A program made the translations under genes and the position numbers. From an uncultured Bacteroidales bacterium (GTDB taxonomy: Bacteria > Bacteroidota > Bacteroidia > Bacteroidales > Paludibacteraceae), in NCBI GenBank assembly GCA_946403315.1, contig CAMIZK010000002.1, positions 1 to 64,000 of the forward strand: a DNA stretch of 64,000 nt, written 5' to 3'. Below, piece by piece: positions 5,224 through 17,641 of this stretch. Position 1 is the stretch's first letter; each line of letters opens with the position of its first letter. The notes beneath the pieces were generated by a model that saw nothing but the letters and a program-made list of their open reading frames with translations, was not told the origin of the DNA and ran no database searches.

Positions 5224-6918
5224 TTAATAATGGAACGACGAGCCGCCGACGAACTCACGCAAGAAGGAAGTAGGCGGAATCTCTTTCTCCGGAATGGGTA
5301 CGAAGTACTGGAGGAACTTAAGCAGCCTATGCGCTTCGGTATATTCCTCGCAGAACTTAGGCACTTCCGCCAAGATCGGTTCCGCATGCCGTTTGAGCAC
5401 CGCAAACTCAAAGATGAGGGCGGAGTTAAACATGACATCTGCTTCTTCCTGGAAGGGGTACACCCATTTCTGCTCACCGCGAATGACGGACGGACAACGG
5501 GCGATCGTCTCCTTAGCGGAGAAACCGCGGTATTTATAGTCACGCACGATCCGGCGAAGCAGACGAATGTCGGTGGTCGGAATCCAGTTATGGTTATCGA
5601 TATTGATGGTAGTCAGCGCCGAGACGAAGATCTTGAATGTCAGGTCTTTATCCACATCCGGCAGAATACAGGGGTTAAGGGCATGCAGACCTTCGATGAC
5701 CAGCACGGAGTCTTTCTGCAGCTTGAGTTTCTTTCCTTTGAAGACGCGCTCACCGATGGTGAAGTCATAGGTCGGGAGATCCACTTCTTTTCCGTCCAAA
5801 AGCTCATGCATCTGCTGGCGGAAGAAAGGCAGATCGACAGCGTTGACATTCTCGAAATCCCATTCGCCGTTCTCATCACGCGGTGTATCTACACGGTTGA
5901 CGAAATAGTCATCCATGGAGAGCACTTCCGGCTTGATACCATCGACCAGCAACTGGATCTGCAGACGCTTGGAGAACGTGGTTTTACCGGAAGAGGAAGG
6001 ACCGGAGATAAAGACGATCTTAGGCCGTCTTGCAGCAATCATATCCGCCGTCTGGGCGATCTTCTTCTCGTGTAACGCCTCAGCGAGTTTGATTAGTTCG
6101 AAGGATTTCTTGGCGTTGCATGCGACGTTGAAATCGCTTACATTATTGATATGCAGCAGTTTGTTCCAACGGTTATATTCCTGGAAGATGGAGAACATCT
6201 TCTCCTGCTGAATCGAGTCTTCGAGGATCAGCGGATTGCTGCGGTTCGGGATACGAACGAGCATGCCGTCTTTGAACGGTTCGATATCGAAGAGGGTGAT
6301 ATAGCCGGAACTGGGTAAGAGCACATTGGTGTAATAATCAATGAAATCACCCATGCGGAAATAGCGGCAGTAGGGGTTTCCAAGCGTCTCGAAGATAGAG
6401 GACTCGTTGTTATACCGGGCAGCAAACATACGGATCACCTCTTTGGTCTGCTTCTCCTCCTCATAGATCGGCCGGTTCTCCGCAATGATCAGCTGCATAC
6501 GTTTCTTAATGGCATCAATCATCTCCGGAGACACTACCGGCGCTTCTCTCTGGGCTTCCAGATCTTCATCCTTATCCACATGCCATTGTAGGGTGCAGTA
6601 ATAACCTTTGCTGATCGGATGCTCGACACGAAGGTCCATACGAGGATAGAGTTCATTCACCGCACAGGCCAGCACCATACCTAAAGTACGCACATACGCA
6701 CGCATGCCGGAAGGCGTGCTGGCATCCAGGAACTCGACATCTTTGGGTTTATACAGCCGGAAATCGAGATTCTCCACCTTGTAGTTGACATGCGCAGCGA
6801 TGATCGGGTACTTCAACTGCACATTCAACAACTCCTTCAACTCAATCAACGAGATTCCTCGTGGCACCTCATGGTAGGTGTGCGTGTTCTTGCAATAAAC
6901 GGTAATGGTCGGTTCCAT
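5224..6918 (-). CDS. Uridine kinase-like nucleoside kinase with N-terminal TGS-like domain
   Basis: P-loop KIVFISGPSSSGKTTFSKRLQIQL; VLVIEGLHALNP; MDDYFVNR. Confidence 0.88.
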   Translation of the reverse strand: MEPTITVYCKNTHTYHEVPRGISLIELKELLNVQLKYPIIAAHVNYKVENLDFRLYKPKDVEFLDASTPSGMRAYVRTLGMVLACAVNELYPRMDLRVEHPISKGYYCTLQWHVDKDEDLEAQREAPVVSPEMIDAIKKRMQLIIAENRPIYEEEKQTKEVIRMFAARYNNESSIFETLGNPYCRYFRMGDFIDYYTNVLLPSSGYITLFDIEPFKDGMLVRIPNRSNPLILEDSIQQEKMFSIFQEYNRWNKLLHINNVSDFNVACNAKKSFELIKLAEALHEKKIAQTADMIAARRPKIVFISGPSSSGKTTFSKRLQIQLLVDGIKPEVLSMDDYFVNRVDTPRDENGEWDFENVNAVDLPFFRQQMHELLDGKEVDLPTYDFTIGERVFKGKKLKLQKDSVLVIEGLHALNPCILPDVDKDLTFKIFVSALTTINIDNHNWIPTTDIRLLRRIVRDYKYRGFSAKETIARCPSVIRGEQKWVYPFQEEADVMFNSALIFEFAVLKRHAEPILAEVPKFCEEYTEAHRLLKFLQYFVPIPEKEIPPTSFLREFVGGSSFHY

Positions 6919-6919
6919 A

Positions 6920-7696
6920 CTATTTCAGTTTATCTATTTCTATTGCTTGCTCTAAGAGCGCCTTCATGTCGGACAGCCGCACTTGATTGGCTGCATCGGA
7001 GATCGCTTTATCGGGATCAGGATGGGTCTCGATGAACAGTCCGTCAATACCTACGGCCACTGCGGCACGCATGAGATACGGCACCATCTCCCTGTTTCCT
7101 CCGGTGACACCTGCCTGCGAAGAGGGTTGCTGCACCGAGTGGGTAGCGTCAAAGATGACAGGACAGCCGAAACGCCGCATCTCCACGAGCGAAGGCATAT
7201 CCACCACAAGCCGTCCGTAACCGAAAGACGAACCGCGTTCGGTTAACCATATATGTCCTTCTTTGGCTGCGTGGGGTGCCACCTGTTCAATCTTCGAGAT
7301 AGCACCGCCCAAGTCCCATGGGGCCATGAACTGACCTTTCTTGACGTTGACGATGCGACCGGTGACAGCTGCTGCTTGCAGCAGGTCCGTCTGTCGACTC
7401 AGGAAAGCAGGTATCTGCAGCACGTCTGCCACTTCAGCGACAGGCGCACACTGCCAGGTCTCATGCACATCCGTGAGAATCGGCAAGCCGAACTGGGTCT
7501 TCACTTCCTGCAGGATCTTCAGACCTTCCTCCATCCCCACTCCACGAGCCGAAGCCGAGGTGCGGTTGGCTTTATCGAAAGAGGACTTGAAATAGAGGGT
7601 GATACCCAGGTCATAACAGAGACGGTTGAGCGTCTCTGCCGTCTGGAGCACGATATCTCTATTTTCAATGGCACACGGCCCGGCTATGAGGAACAT
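6920..7696 (-). CDS. kdsA: 3-deoxy-8-phosphooctulonate synthase (KDO-8-P synthase)
   Basis: IAGPCAIENRDI, KSSFDKANRTS, ILTDVHE, DATHSVQQPSSQAGVTGGNREMVP. Confidence 0.95.
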   Translation of the reverse strand: MFLIAGPCAIENRDIVLQTAETLNRLCYDLGITLYFKSSFDKANRTSASARGVGMEEGLKILQEVKTQFGLPILTDVHETWQCAPVAEVADVLQIPAFLSRQTDLLQAAAVTGRIVNVKKGQFMAPWDLGGAISKIEQVAPHAAKEGHIWLTERGSSFGYGRLVVDMPSLVEMRRFGCPVIFDATHSVQQPSSQAGVTGGNREMVPYLMRAAVAVGIDGLFIETHPDPDKAISDAANQVRLSDMKALLEQAIEIDKLK

Positions 7697-7707
7697 AAAA
7701 CAGGAGG

Positions 7708-9063
7708 TTATTTCTTCTTTTCTGCCTCGTTACGCTGTGCAAGCGGCGAGTCATCCACCGAACGGAAGACACGTGCCCACTGCACTTTCAGCTTACCTTC
7801 CCCACCCTTCTCTGCCTTCGGCAGCCAGCTTTGCGCCAAGAAGAACATTGCTTCTTTCGGCAGGCGGTTCGGGATACGCAGCAGTTCCAGATCGTTCACA
7901 TACCAGATCAGTTCATGCTTGGTCCAACGGAAGGCATAGACGTGGTACATCGAACGCAGTACACCGGTGAGGTCCACCATCTTGGTGTTCTGTCCGTCCA
8001 CGTAACCCACCTGATGACGTTTCCCGTTGAAATGATAGAGCGCGATCATCGGCGTATTCTGCTTACCGGTTGTCAGTCCGAAGAAATGATGGCCGACACC
8101 CTGTGTACGAACCTTCGCCATGAACAAACCGGACTCCTGGGCAAACGCTTCTTTGGTGTTCATCGCATCGGAGGTGAAATCAAACACCTCTTCCACAAAG
8201 CCTTTTTTCTCATCCCATGCGATCGCTTTCTTACTCTCTGCACGGGTCTCGACATCCATACGGCCTTCCGCGAAGAACGTGTTCTTACCATCGTTGTACG
8301 CCTGACGCTCGGAGGTTCGGGAATGACCGTCTTTCATTGCCGGGTTCGCATAACCGAAACCGGGTTTCCAGTTCTTACCAGTGGACATATCGTCATCAAA
8401 AGCCGGACGGAACAATTCCGCCCAGTCGATACGCTCTTCCCGTTGGGCGAAATAGAACTTGATATCATCCGATTTCGCCAGTTGGTTAAAGCGTTGCTCG
8501 ATGCGGTACTCATCCGAATGCTCCCAGCGTTTGTTATCCTCCCAAAACGCATGACGGACCTTGAAATCCTCCGTGTTCACCTCTTCCTCCAAGGCCGTCA
8601 GCTGCTTCAACTCAGACGAGTTAAGCACCTTCATGTAGTTCTTGTAAAGGGAGGAGTTATAGAGGTCATAGTACTTCTTAAGCAGACTATCGGCCTTACG
8701 CTCTTCAGCGCTGTGCACTTTCTGGAAGTCCGGTGTCTCACGGAACTGCAGAAAATCGCGGAAGAGGGGATCTGCCAGAGCCTCCCGGTAACGTCTGATT
8801 TCCTTGGAAGCTGTCAAACGCTTGTAATCCAACATCTTACGACCTTCGGCCGTGTCTTTGTATTTGCGGGATACAAGTTCCTGTTTACGCTCCTTAAAAT
8901 CGCTACTCTCGATGCGTTTTTTTAATTCCTGATACTCTGCCAGTTCAGGTGATTTCTCAATCTGGCGATAGCGTTTTACTCGTTCTTGCATGTCGTAAAC
9001 GGTCTTCTCGAACGCTTCGGTCGAGAGCATTTTACGGGTTAATCTGGCTGCAAATAGGTTCAT
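7708..9063 (-). CDS. Helical-repeat protein with C-terminal GH16/concanavalin-like domain, no signal peptide, probably non-catalytic
   Basis: N-terminal charged helical repeats with recurring S/T-x-DF units; C-term WKPGFGYANPAM...GLFMAKVRTQG...ALYHFNGKRHQVGYVDG...YHVYAFRWTKHELIWYVNDLELLRIP resembles GH16 fold. Confidence 0.6.
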   Translation of the reverse strand: MNLFAARLTRKMLSTEAFEKTVYDMQERVKRYRQIEKSPELAEYQELKKRIESSDFKERKQELVSRKYKDTAEGRKMLDYKRLTASKEIRRYREALADPLFRDFLQFRETPDFQKVHSAEERKADSLLKKYYDLYNSSLYKNYMKVLNSSELKQLTALEEEVNTEDFKVRHAFWEDNKRWEHSDEYRIEQRFNQLAKSDDIKFYFAQREERIDWAELFRPAFDDDMSTGKNWKPGFGYANPAMKDGHSRTSERQAYNDGKNTFFAEGRMDVETRAESKKAIAWDEKKGFVEEVFDFTSDAMNTKEAFAQESGLFMAKVRTQGVGHHFFGLTTGKQNTPMIALYHFNGKRHQVGYVDGQNTKMVDLTGVLRSMYHVYAFRWTKHELIWYVNDLELLRIPNRLPKEAMFFLAQSWLPKAEKGGEGKLKVQWARVFRSVDDSPLAQRNEAEKKK

Positions 9064-9087
9064 AAAAAACTTTGTTTTATGTATGAT

Positions 9088-9629
9088 TTATAATTTTTGA
9101 TTTTTGATTTCGTCGTACAACTCATCGAGTGTATCGACGAAGATGGGTTGGTAACTCTGCTGTTCGGGGATGAAATGCAGGTCCTGCATGACGCGTATCT
9201 GCTGCTTGAGGGGCTCGTAAAAACCCTTGTGGTTCAGCACGAAAGTCGGTTTATGGTGTTCCCCAACAATCGCAGACGAAGTAGCATCCATCATCTCGTC
9301 CAGCGTGCCGTAACTGCCGGGCAGACATACGATGGTATCGGCTTCATCCCGCATGCGCTGCTTGCGTTCGGACATATTCTGCACTTCGATGAGATAATCG
9401 CAGTTCGTTGCCAGGCGACCGGCAGCTTTGATACGCGGCGGTATGACACCTATGACGTGTGCCCCTGCTTGGTGCGCCGCGTCACTGGTACGACTCATCA
9501 ACCCGCCTGTTGCACCACCGTAGATAAGCGTGTGACCGTTTTCTCCGATCCACTTACCCAATGCGTCACCGAGTTGCAAGAACTCTTCCGGTATCGCATT
9601 TTTCGCCGAACAATAGACTGCAATTCGCA

Positions 9630-9630
<1 letters not shown>
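9088..9630 (-). CDS. TIGR00730/LOG family Rossmann-fold protein (cytokinin riboside phosphoribohydrolase-like)
   Basis: LIYGGATGGLMSRTSDAAHQAGAHVIGVIP; MRDEADTIVCLPGSYGTLDEMMD (PGGxGTxxE-like). Confidence 0.92.
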
Positions 9631-11636
<2,006 letters not shown>

Positions 11637-12708: not shown

Positions 12709-12874
12709 ATAGGTACAAATTAAAAGTTCAGCGTGATCATTTTCGAATCACGCTGCAAAGGTACTACATTTATTTCATATACTGAAATCGTCCAGAACTT
12801 TGTTAAAATTGCAAAGTGTAGTTTGCAAAATCAAATAAGTCAAAGACTTAGTGCCCGCGTAGGGATTGGAAGGG

Positions 12875-13522
12875 CTATAGTGTGGGGTAGCAATGCGTAA
12901 CTTGTGAACCCCTGCAAAGCCGACGCTCGCAGGGTGTAGATGTCTGCCGGTACAGCAAAGGAATGTGCTCCACATCGGAAGGAGCGGTAGAGTGCTCCCA
13001 GTTGGCAAAGAGTATTTCTTTGCTTGTGCCATCGGCAGTAGCAGACGTGAAACGGCAGTTGCAGGCTTCCTTGCGGAGCATGGTGGTGATGCGTGTGCCA
13101 TCCTTGGAAAGAATGATGAGCGTGACACAGAAGCCGAAGTGTTTGAAATCGAGGCAAGCGCCGAGGAAATAATCCGCCATGTTGTTCTCAAAGAAGAAAT
13201 CGGTGATTTGCTTCTTGACATCGGCGGTACACTCGCAGGTATCGTACTGGAGACCTTGACCGTAGCACACTTCGGCGTTCCACTGTTGGCAGGTGGTCAG
13301 GGTCTCGTCGGCTTCAATCTTCTTGAGGACGTTGTAGGGCATGAGGCTGTCCGCTCCCCAAGGGATGTACTGGGTATGGTCATCCAGCTGGATAGGCGAA
13401 ATCTCGCCATCCTCTTTGAAGAGTGTGGTGGTGTCGGTGACAAAGATTGCCCGGGCTTTGAGTTGTGGTATATCTACCACGGAGTCAAAAATAAAATCCA
13501 TATCTTGCAAATTTTGCTGCAA
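12875..13522 (-). pseudogene. Truncated prophage portal-like protein remnant
   Basis: QYIPWGADSLMPYNVLKKIEADETLTTCQQWNAEVCYGQGLQY resembles portal N-termini of Bacteroidales prophages; ORF is short and ends abruptly, possible frameshift continuation in ORF 12775..13221. Confidence 0.5.
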
Positions 13523-13636
13523 AGATATGAATTTATGCGCGGGCGTGAAAAGACACAGTCAGACACAGGAACAGCAGAGGACTAGGTAGTCTGGTGCAGC
13601 GCGGTAATCTTTCACGTGACGTCCCACATAGTTCAA

Positions 13637-14512
13637 TCAAACATATATCACATATACATTCTCTTTATCTAATTCTGCAGGAGAGGTGTAGAGTTTGACG
13701 TCCTCCCTTTTCTTGATGATTTTCTCCATACTTTCTTGTGCATGCTCACAATCGAGAATAACCATAAATTTATAATAATCAGCAATATCTTTGATAGGCT
13801 GCTTTTTTTTCTTCCCATCTAACAGATGCTCAATATCTTTAATGATTCCTCTTTCCTGTGCCGCACCAAATGACGTTTCGTTAACGGGGATATTGCATTT
13901 TACTTCAGCAATGATTTTCTTGTCTCCAACGTACTTCACATCATATCCATTAGCATTGGCATGTTGCTTGTCTACTATTTTTCCTATACCAACTTTTTCT
14001 TTACTATCGATGAATCCGTCTTGATAGAGTTTTAGCACAAACGAATCCGTTGCACGCAATGTAATCATATTATTGATGCAACTGAGCAGTTTCTTAAGGT
14101 CAATCAATTGTTCATTAGATAGTTTAGAATATAGGTCTTCTATTCCTAATTGCGCAAAGAATTGATTGAACTGCTCTTTCAAGTCCTTTTCTCTATTATA
14201 TTCCAGAGATGCCAGAATGGATTGACGCACAATAGGTGTAGCAAACGAGATGAAGGGAGTATCCTCTGTCGGCTCATATTTCTCTGCCGCATTAGCAAGT
14301 CCTACTCTTCCGGCATTTATTAGTTCATCTAGAGAAAGTCCTTTATCCTGGTATTGTGCAGCCAACGAAACTACAAAACGCATATTGGCACGCACGAGTT
14401 GTTCTAATGCGGTTCCATCGTTATTATGGACACGATTGATGAGTTCTTTCTCTTCCTGCTTAGACAAAAGAGGTTCATTCCCTATCTCTTGAAGGATATT
14501 ATCTATATTCAT
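13637..14512 (-). CDS. Sigma-70 region 1.2-2 domain fused to a PD-(D/E)XK nuclease-like domain
   Basis: N-term ILQEIGNEPLLSKQEEKELINRVHNNDGTALEQLVRANMRFVVSLAAQYQDKGLSLDELINAGRVGLANAAEKYEP...FISFATPIVRQSILASL; C-term NGYDVKYVGDKKIIAEVKCNIPV...FGAAQERGIIKDIEHLL. Confidence 0.8.
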   Translation of the reverse strand: MNIDNILQEIGNEPLLSKQEEKELINRVHNNDGTALEQLVRANMRFVVSLAAQYQDKGLSLDELINAGRVGLANAAEKYEPTEDTPFISFATPIVRQSILASLEYNREKDLKEQFNQFFAQLGIEDLYSKLSNEQLIDLKKLLSCINNMITLRATDSFVLKLYQDGFIDSKEKVGIGKIVDKQHANANGYDVKYVGDKKIIAEVKCNIPVNETSFGAAQERGIIKDIEHLLDGKKKKQPIKDIADYYKFMVILDCEHAQESMEKIIKKREDVKLYTSPAELDKENVYVIYV

Positions 14513-15102
14513 AATTTAATGCCAAATTCGTTTTCTAATTCTTTCCACGAACGATCCATGTGCTCACCGAGGAATTGTTTGTATTGTTCATCCAAATTGC
14601 CTACCCAAGTGAAGTTGTCTGCTGGATTGTAGATTGCTTTCATCTTCTCAACATTCTTCGAAGTCCATGTGATAAATACTGAGCAATCTTCCTGCGTGTC
14701 CTTTAAGGTATTAAACAACAAGTTGCGCACATATAGCGGGTTGTCGTGGATCGAATCTTCCATGGGAATTTCGGTAATGTTTTCAACCACAATAATAGGT
14801 CTTGGAGCTAATGGCGATATCTCAATGGAATCGAGCCATCCTTTAGCGTCTCCTTTGCAGAGTTTAGCGCAATCAATGTGGTAGATAGGTCTGTTTAGAT
14901 GCTCCTGAAGCGAGTTGGTAAAGCACTCTTTCTTCTTCGTCATCTCACGCAGTTTCTTTGTTAAATGTGCCGCTTCAACGACCATTAGATGTCCCCGAAG
15001 TCCCATCGCATAAAATAGCTCTTCCAATACTTGCTCTTTCACATATGCGTCCATTTCTTTGAAACGGTCCCGAGCAATTGTTGTGTCATTGTCTTGTATC
15101 AT
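14509..15102 (-). CDS. Degenerate AAA+-like protein, operon partner of the sigma/nuclease fusion
   Basis: 4-bp start/stop overlap with the downstream gene; GHLMVVEAAHLTKKLREM...LNRPIYHIDCAKL, RPIIVVENITEIP, DCSVFITWTSKNVEKM follow the order Walker A position/strand 2/Walker B/sensor 1 but lack canonical GxxxxGKT and DE. Confidence 0.55.
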   Translation of the reverse strand: MIQDNDTTIARDRFKEMDAYVKEQVLEELFYAMGLRGHLMVVEAAHLTKKLREMTKKKECFTNSLQEHLNRPIYHIDCAKLCKGDAKGWLDSIEISPLAPRPIIVVENITEIPMEDSIHDNPLYVRNLLFNTLKDTQEDCSVFITWTSKNVEKMKAIYNPADNFTWVGNLDEQYKQFLGEHMDRSWKELENEFGIKL

Positions 15103-15243
15103 AACCCTATATGTTTATAATTACAACTCTATATAGAAAGTTTTTCAAAATCTTTAGTGTTTTTCATGTCTTTTTGTAGAGTATAGCGGACTCGAAAGTA
15201 AAAAAATCAATGAACTAATACTCCAAACTAATACTTTGCGCTG

Positions 15244-15275
15244 CAAAATTACTCAAAAAATTTGGATTACGCAAA
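15244..15275 (-). promoter_or_regulatory. Bacteroidetes housekeeping promoter for the 15102-13637 operon
   Basis: Minus strand TTTG-N20-TAATTTTG (plus caaaatta 15244-15251, caaa 15272-15275). Confidence 0.7.
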
Positions 15276-15353
15276 TTTTTTTGGCATGAAATGCAAATGA
15301 AATGAATTTTGCAAGCGAAAATGAAACGGAAAAGCAAGGCAAAATAAAAAAAA

Positions 15354-15379
15354 CCTCCCAAGTTTTGAGGCTTGGGAGG
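15354..15379 (-). terminator. Rho-independent terminator-like hairpin
   Basis: CCTCCCAAG/CTTGGGAGG perfect 9-bp stem with 8-nt loop, followed on the minus strand by a T-rich tract (plus aaaataaaaaaaa to its left). Confidence 0.65.
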
Positions 15380-15799
15380 GGGCATGTGGGACCTTGCTGA
15401 AAGTTTGCCAACTTCATTATATCACATACAAAAAGTTTGCCGAGGTGCTATAAGAATACCTCCAGACCGTTGATTTTCGAGATGCAGACATCGCGGACAG
15501 TGCAGATTTCTTTAATCGGGTGCAAAGGTACGAAAAATATTTGATATATGCAAATATTGGTGGGATTTTTTGCAGAAATCATCGGATAACATCCGATACA
15601 ATGAACGACGAAGAAAGCCCGATTCAATCGGGCACAAAAGAAGAAAGACATTATTGCCGATACAAAGCGAATTGTGCCGATTGTTATGGGAGTTTGAAAT
15701 TAACAGGCAAGGCGTATCTCACATCTAAGTAGCACGATTTCGCTTTGCATTCCCATTTCGGCATAGAGCGAATTACGCGGATTGAATTTTTGTGAAGAT

Positions 15800-16699: not shown

Positions 16700-17641
16700 A
16701 TGAGTAAAGTAACTGTTGTTGGCGCAGGTAACGTAGGTGCTACGTGCGCAAATGTATTGGCCGTAAATGAGGTGGCTAATGAAGTATGTCTGATTGATAT
16801 CAAGGAGGGTTTTGCAGAGGGCAAGGCCATGGATATCATGCAAACCGCTCAGTTGATGGGTTTTGATACGGTAGTAGAGGGTGTGACGAATGACTACTCG
16901 AAGACCAGCGGTTCGGACGTTGTTATTATTACTTCGGGTCTGCCGCGTAAGCCGGGTATGACGCGTGAGGAGCTGATCGGTGTGAACGCAGGTATCGTGA
17001 AGAGTGTTTGCGACCAGGTACTGAAATACAGCCCGAACGCTATCCTCGTTGTTGTTTCCAACCCGATGGATACGATGGCTTATCTGACGCTTCACGCTCT
17101 CGGTCTGCCGCGTAACCGCGTGATCGGTATGGGTGGTGCTCTCGACAGCGCACGTCTGAAATACTTCCTGAGCCAGGCTCTGAAGTGCAACGCCAACGAT
17201 GTGGACGGTTTCGTTATCGGTGGTCACGGCGACACGACGATGATCCCTCTGACCAGCTACACGACCTACAAAGGTATCAACGTATCCGAGTTCCTCAGCG
17301 CAGAGGAGTTGGAGAACGTCGTTAAATCGACCATGGTAGGCGGTGCTACTCTCACCGGTCTGCTTGGTACTTCCGCTTGGATGGCTCCGGGTGCAGCAGC
17401 TGCTTCGGTTGCAGAGGCTATCATCAAGGACCAGAAGAAGATGATCCCGTGTTCCGCAGCCCTCGAAGGCGAGTACGGCATGAAGGATATCACGATCGGT
17501 GTTCCGTGTATCATTGGTAAGAACGGTATTGAGAAGATCTTGGAGTTGAATATTAGTGAAGAGGAGCGTGCTAAACTGCACGAGTCGGAAGCTGCCGTTC
17601 GTAAGACAACCGCTATTTTGAAAGAATTAAACGTCCTCTAA
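16700..17641 (+). CDS. mdh: Malate dehydrogenase
   Basis: KVTVVGAGNVGATCANVLA; VIITSGLPRKPGMTREELI; VSNPMDTMAYL; GGHGDTTMIPL. Confidence 0.97.
   Translation: MSKVTVVGAGNVGATCANVLAVNEVANEVCLIDIKEGFAEGKAMDIMQTAQLMGFDTVVEGVTNDYSKTSGSDVVIITSGLPRKPGMTREELIGVNAGIVKSVCDQVLKYSPNAILVVVSNPMDTMAYLTLHALGLPRNRVIGMGGALDSARLKYFLSQALKCNANDVDGFVIGGHGDTTMIPLTSYTTYKGINVSEFLSAEELENVVKSTMVGGATLTGLLGTSAWMAPGAAAASVAEAIIKDQKKMIPCSAALEGEYGMKDITIGVPCIIGKNGIEKILELNISEEERAKLHESEAAVRKTTAILKELNVL

Follow-up and report, generated by a model that had tools for sequence, protein, structure and literature searches.

P2-like phages and P4-like satellites are known for hotspots of prophage cargo (moron) or defence genes, where related phages differ in the genes that they carry at one fixed position (PMC9122126). 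The locus described here shares this arrangement, and its cassette can further be likened to such cargo in having its own promoter and an upstream terminator; however, the phage concerned belongs to another group, and the defence role of the cassette is putative. The closest described proteins are the Group 1 sigma-70 factors (Bacteroidales RpoD), to which residues 2-105 of the protein studied here are ~50% identical from region 1.2 through 2.3. Unlike these factors, the sigma-like part of our protein ends before region 2.4, lacks regions 3 and 4 and carries other residues at the core-contact and melting positions. A further hit was MzaA of the MZA anti-phage system, through its sigma-like segment, but only ~70-80 residues match, as they would for any sigma factor. 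Membership of the locus in the MZA system was rejected, the partner and portal-side ORFs having no PADLOC hit. For the second, nuclease-like part, the nearest Pfam lead to the PD-(D/E)XK group was NOV_C (PF13020), whose GYD...IEVK stands in register with GYD...AEVK of our protein and against which 1 of 11 nuclease-domain homologs scored (E 0.004, below the cut-off); the profile-profile probability, however, was only 3%, and the nuclease part has a helical N-terminal part of its own. We found no described sigma-nuclease system in the open-access literature.

We analysed a window of 64,000 nucleotides (positions 1 to 64,000 of contig CAMIZK010000002.1, assembly GCA_946403315.1) from an uncultured Bacteroidales bacterium of the family Paludibacteraceae. 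The initial annotation of this window had singled out a two-gene operon, one product of which was thought to dock on RNA polymerase like a sigma factor while carrying a nuclease. Both ORFs, one of 291 aa (13637..14512, minus strand) and one of 197 aa (14509..15102, minus strand; hereafter the partner), are present exactly where they had been placed, with a 4-bp overlap (ATGA), and the single TTTG-N20-TAATTTTG promoter reported ahead of both genes was found as well. Three such sites were observed in a 3.9-kb piece, compared with 0.11 expected. Since a hairpin and T run stand upstream of this promoter, the gene pair is an insulated transcription unit; the G+C content of the cassette is 39%, versus 48.5% for the window.

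Searching viral contigs with the C-terminal part of the 291-aa protein recovered one close relative, the 43-kb IMG/VR phage contig IMGVR_UViG_3300021318_000156 (hereafter L045), which is the only intact relative of the whole cassette that is known. By blastn, the window aligned to L045 in two blocks, 15513..14207 with 6221..7551 (94% identity) and 14205..12960 with 8002..9247 (92%); the ~450 bp at L045 7552-8001 had no counterpart in the window, and nothing aligned to the fetched L045 stretch outside 6221-9247. The portal gene encodes 437 aa in L045, of which 215 aa remain as an ORF in the window, and the remnant is flanked in the host chromosome by ORFs that by eye are gyrB-like (9630-11618) and malate dehydrogenase-like (16700-17641). 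A second copy of an L045-type phage was sought in the same genome and none was found. What survives at this locus is thus a piece of a decayed Bacteroidales prophage that has retained its cargo (moron) cassette (Table 1). We also note that the DNA at both edges of the remnant (window 12854-12961 and 15517-15700) has further copies, at 85-98% identity, in many genomes of the genus besides this one, possibly as small interspersed elements.

Table 1. Features of the prophage remnant and its cassette (window positions).
Feature	Position	Strand	Basis
Prophage remnant, 2.55 kb	12960..15513	-	Collinear with L045 6221-9247 minus ~450 bp
Truncated phage portal gene	12960..13501	-	Alignment to L045; weak PHROG portal match
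PD-(D/E)XK-like nuclease part (predicted), residues ~103-291	13637..14205	-	Invariant motif; pN/pS versus L045
Diverged recombination tract spanning the junction	13817..14240	-	Alignment and mismatch profile
Fusion junction, L045 7551 joined to 8002	14205..14207	-	Alignment
Sigma-70 region 1.2-2 part, residues 1-101 of the chimera	14210..14512	-	Pfam/PDB matches; L045 7246-7566
Partner gene, 197 aa	14509..15102	-	ORF; 99% identity with the copy in L045; 8 aligned relatives
Cassette promoter of the Bacteroidales type, TTTG-N20-TAATTTTG	15244..15275	-	Pattern match
Terminator-like hairpin and T run, upstream of the cassette promoter	15354..15379	-	Surrounding 55 bases identical in L045
3' end of the phage gene preceding the cargo slot	15448..15513	-	Matches end of L045 gene 5981-6286

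When 358 family genomes were searched at the DNA level, nine further members of the genus proved to have this phage portal region (83-94% identity). In the ten copies read out from these nine genomes (L089-L098), other genes fill the interval between the portal gene and a short conserved upstream gene ending ...RDVCIS[RK]INGLEVFL. Read by eye, the sibling cargo includes small secreted proteins or lipoproteins, a transporter-thioredoxin-permease set (L094), a radical-SAM-like protein (L097, L098) and a large repeat protein (L096), part of it being non-defence, metabolic or transport-like. The sigma/nuclease cassette is one alternative content of this variable slot and, as is characteristic of morons, combines variable insertion at a fixed phage site with its own transcription signals; it is horizontally acquired and insulated.

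The comparison with L045 also accounts for the apparent fusion. Partner, sigma and nuclease follow one another in the same order in L045 (92-99% identity), as three genes in a row at 6656-7249 (197 aa), 7246-7566 (106 aa) and 7572-8570 (332 aa). The sigma part is there an independent 106-aa gene with its own stop, and the last ~190 aa of the 332-aa protein are the window's nuclease part. It follows from the two-block alignment that the 291-aa ORF is a chimera, with the sigma gene joined to the 3' portion of the gene after it; sigma and nuclease domain are read as one because the intervening DNA is absent from the window. We judge it very probable that the anatomy is as described, with two cassette genes of a decayed prophage run together into a chimera. 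The dedicated fusion protein originally proposed is not supported by this comparison, as L045 has adjacent but separate genes with a different domain between them, and in the 11 other relatives of the nuclease domain no sigma fusion occurs. We largely arrive at the chimera of two ordinary genes that the initial annotation had named as its own counter-reading, with the caveat that these genes share one operon and are not ordinary. The intervening domain (~140 aa), which makes up the N-terminal half of the 332-aa protein of L045, is presumably Api92-like and matches ~300-aa free-standing proteins of the genus; it is fused to the nuclease only in L045 and is absent from the window. Since this domain is independent elsewhere in the genus, modules are being shuffled. 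The ~300-aa family itself (L105-L114) often occurs as several members per locus, and it is the last ~140 aa of its members that match L045.

The junction lies inside a diverged block: 14240..13817 (~425 bp) is ~88% identical to L045 on either side of it, whereas the DNA beyond the block is nearly the same as in L045, over 15246 to 14242 with very few differences and likewise over 13816 to 13616. For this reason, loss of the DNA in one recent step from an allele of the L045 type was discarded as a complete explanation. The fusion thus either arrived with a recombination tract or is located in one, and L045 itself could be the derived form. This location leaves room for a fused sigma-nuclease that is a genuine functional allele circulating among phages, in which sigma-2 would tether the nuclease to RNA polymerase or serve as a built-in bait, L045 maybe having been split by the Api92-like insertion. 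Such an allele would fit a junction that falls exactly at the module borders (where the sigma gene ends and where, as in G007/G033, the nuclease domain begins) and in a diverged tract, as if acquired from another allele, and it would fit a 291-aa ORF that is intact although the flanking portal gene is broken. We nevertheless consider it unlikely, given that the fusion is a single occurrence, with no other in the 358 family genomes (C-domain search) or a 398-genome phylum sample and no second fused copy in viral-contig scans with sigma, nuclease and junction-side sequences. Core-binding and melting residues of the sigma part are moreover changed, and an in-frame join has a one-in-three chance after any rearrangement.

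With regard to the sigma-like part, the earlier reading of an N-terminal sigma-70 region 1.2-2 without regions 3 and 4 was confirmed. The first ~103 residues of the 291-aa ORF matched Sigma70_r2 of Pfam (E 1.3e-10) and ~70 PDB sigma-factor chains (best E 6.6e-16), Sigma70_r1_2 was matched at the N-terminus at E 1.5e-4, just over its cut-off, and family profile searches gave no match to regions 3 and 4. The homology stops at residue ~103 in the window and L045 alike with region 2.4 missing, and the sigma part therefore lacks the regions (2.4 and 4) for recognition of -10 and -35 elements. Measured against 17 Bacteroidales RpoD sequences, 43 of 94 RpoD-invariant columns are changed in the window, some of the 43 lying in the nuclease part past the end of homology. 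In E. coli sigma70 numbering, for which we used a segment that agrees with the PDB alignments, the changes are D403E, E407A, N409R and M413A in the beta'-coiled-coil contact region and R423E, Y425T, K426P, Y430F, W433P and W434I in the melting region, so that the melting aromatics and beta' coiled-coil contacts of a transcribing sigma are not all in place. With region 2.4 gone, the two melting tryptophans lost and several of the residues for core binding lost too, ordinary promoter use is excluded and docking doubtful. Judged from these residues, promoter melting by the sigma part can be excluded with good confidence, and any docking on RNA polymerase would be weakened. We observed that E407A and N409R (window 14306-14314) are also carried by the reduced sigma factors of Hodgkinia endosymbionts (PMC8321222), and the mutagenesis cited in that source found binding weakened, not lost.

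The significant sigma-70 region 2 homology, together with the fact that phages encode sigma factors, could also be accommodated by a mini-sigma acting as a phage transcription factor (an alternative sigma or appropriator) with the nuclease gene merely adjacent. We hold this to be highly unlikely, as regions 2.4, 3 and 4 are missing, W433/W434 are replaced by P/I, and the cassette occupies a cargo slot that has different contents in sibling phages. Also highly unlikely is an artefact of metagenome assembly in which two phage strains present together were merged, which the state of the genome (89 contigs, 73.6% complete, probably a MAG) and a mosaic block bordered by near-identical DNA might suggest, but which sits poorly with intact coding frames and with a junction in a ~425-bp diverged block that has no long identical L045 stretch for an assembler to switch on.

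The D...ExK core attributed to the C-terminal domain proved to be a real, conserved pattern. ORF residues D191, E203-V-K205 and Q219 (alignment D95, E107, K109, Q123) are invariant across 11 aligned homologs and all four motif residues are retained in a twelfth from phage contig L104; the pattern is therefore not due to chance, and it corresponds to the active-site motif D ... (E/D)xK ... Q/E of the PD-(D/E)XK superfamily. Compared with L045, the nuclease part (diverged block) had pN 0.077 and pS 0.369, and the domain is thus under purifying selection. An AF2 model of the C-domain (pLDDT 61) showed the order strand (D), strand (ExK), helix (Q), strand, which fits PD-(D/E)XK; Foldseek with this model returned no hit at E <0.1 in PDB or BFVD, and both this model and that of the full chimera (pLDDT 39) are too weak for fold claims. 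The C-terminal part had no family above cut-off in Pfam, NCBIfam, PHROGs or PADLOC, and PDB profile searches with the nuclease or partner family gave nothing credible. CtsR_C, SieB and similar Pfam matches in the helical part were below cut-offs and were discarded. Going by its motif, the C-terminal domain is most likely a PD-(D/E)XK-like nuclease. As for the partner protein, it had no Pfam or PDB match above cut-off, no PADLOC family match and no homologs in the plasmid collection; an alignment of 8 relatives revealed conserved VENITE and ITW motifs and no Walker A, a pattern that by eye appears AAA+-like.

Relatives of the nuclease domain occur in 10 of the 358 family genomes, the window's own included, and none was found in the other genomes of the 398-genome phylum sample. 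Pattern searches of GTDB contigs with the full 291-aa protein or the C-domain gave no relative, nor was the C-domain found in plasmid and phage collections. In the nine other host genomes and in L104 (7989-8597) the homologs are free-standing or otherwise unfused to sigma. The L104 relative stands alone, directly downstream of type I R-M hsdS and hsdM and a short KilA-N-like ORF, a setting that suggests an accessory defence role. Genes found close to the host homologs include TerB, GIY-YIG_2, AbiEii and ion-channel genes. One genome (G139) carries a nuclease homolog and a partner homolog ~2 kb apart. The initial annotation had called for a check of gene neighbourhoods, and this yielded defence-related neighbours (R-M in L104, AbiEii, GIY-YIG_2) but nuclease relatives unfused to sigma. 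Separately, the host homologs at L053-L060 lie in an island that recurs and also encodes TerB, GIY-YIG_2, an ion-channel protein, kinase-like proteins and repeated small proteins of ~105-130 aa with no assigned family.

Our best explanation, which we regard as reasonably likely, is a prophage remnant with joined cargo genes of a probable anti-phage cassette, its function being predicted. The cassette as found in L045 is a three-gene operon with its own promoter, encoding a putatively AAA-like partner, a degenerate sigma-2 and an Api92-like/nuclease protein, and in the window sigma and nuclease would have been joined by rearrangement into the 291-aa chimera. Its benefit would go to the prophage, and an attack on competing phages is the most likely way. 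The effector would be the nuclease, kept inactive or aimed by the sigma-2 protein; the latter, unable to act at promoters, would more likely work together with the partner, as a protein adaptor or as bait for a phage factor whose usual target is sigma. The cargo reading is supported by the variable slot, the low G+C, the changed sigma residues, the conserved D/ExK/Q and the defence neighbours elsewhere, and a joint action of sigma and nuclease is supported by their being adjacent genes in L045 and a single fused gene in the window. Of the first interpretation of the locus, the sigma-2-like domain, the nuclease-like core and a mobile setting that fits a defence role are supported, but the dedicated fused protein docking on RNA polymerase is not. 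A bait or tether defence allele, in which a non-transcribing sigma-2 fused to the PD-(D/E)XK-like nuclease would be a decoy bound by sigma- or polymerase-seizing phage factors, so unleashing the nuclease, strikes us as distinctly unlikely.

A purpose-built, polymerase-docking sigma-nuclease fusion is thus mostly explained away, and a modestly novel phage cargo operon remains. A striking domain fusion from a single genome can be a joined cargo-gene pair in a decayed prophage. What is defined here is an undescribed phage cargo operon, with an intact copy in L045, in which the gene for a promoter-incompetent sigma-2 protein adjoins that for a conserved nuclease-like domain. Should the sigma part serve as bait for phages taking over transcription, infection would here be sensed in a new way.
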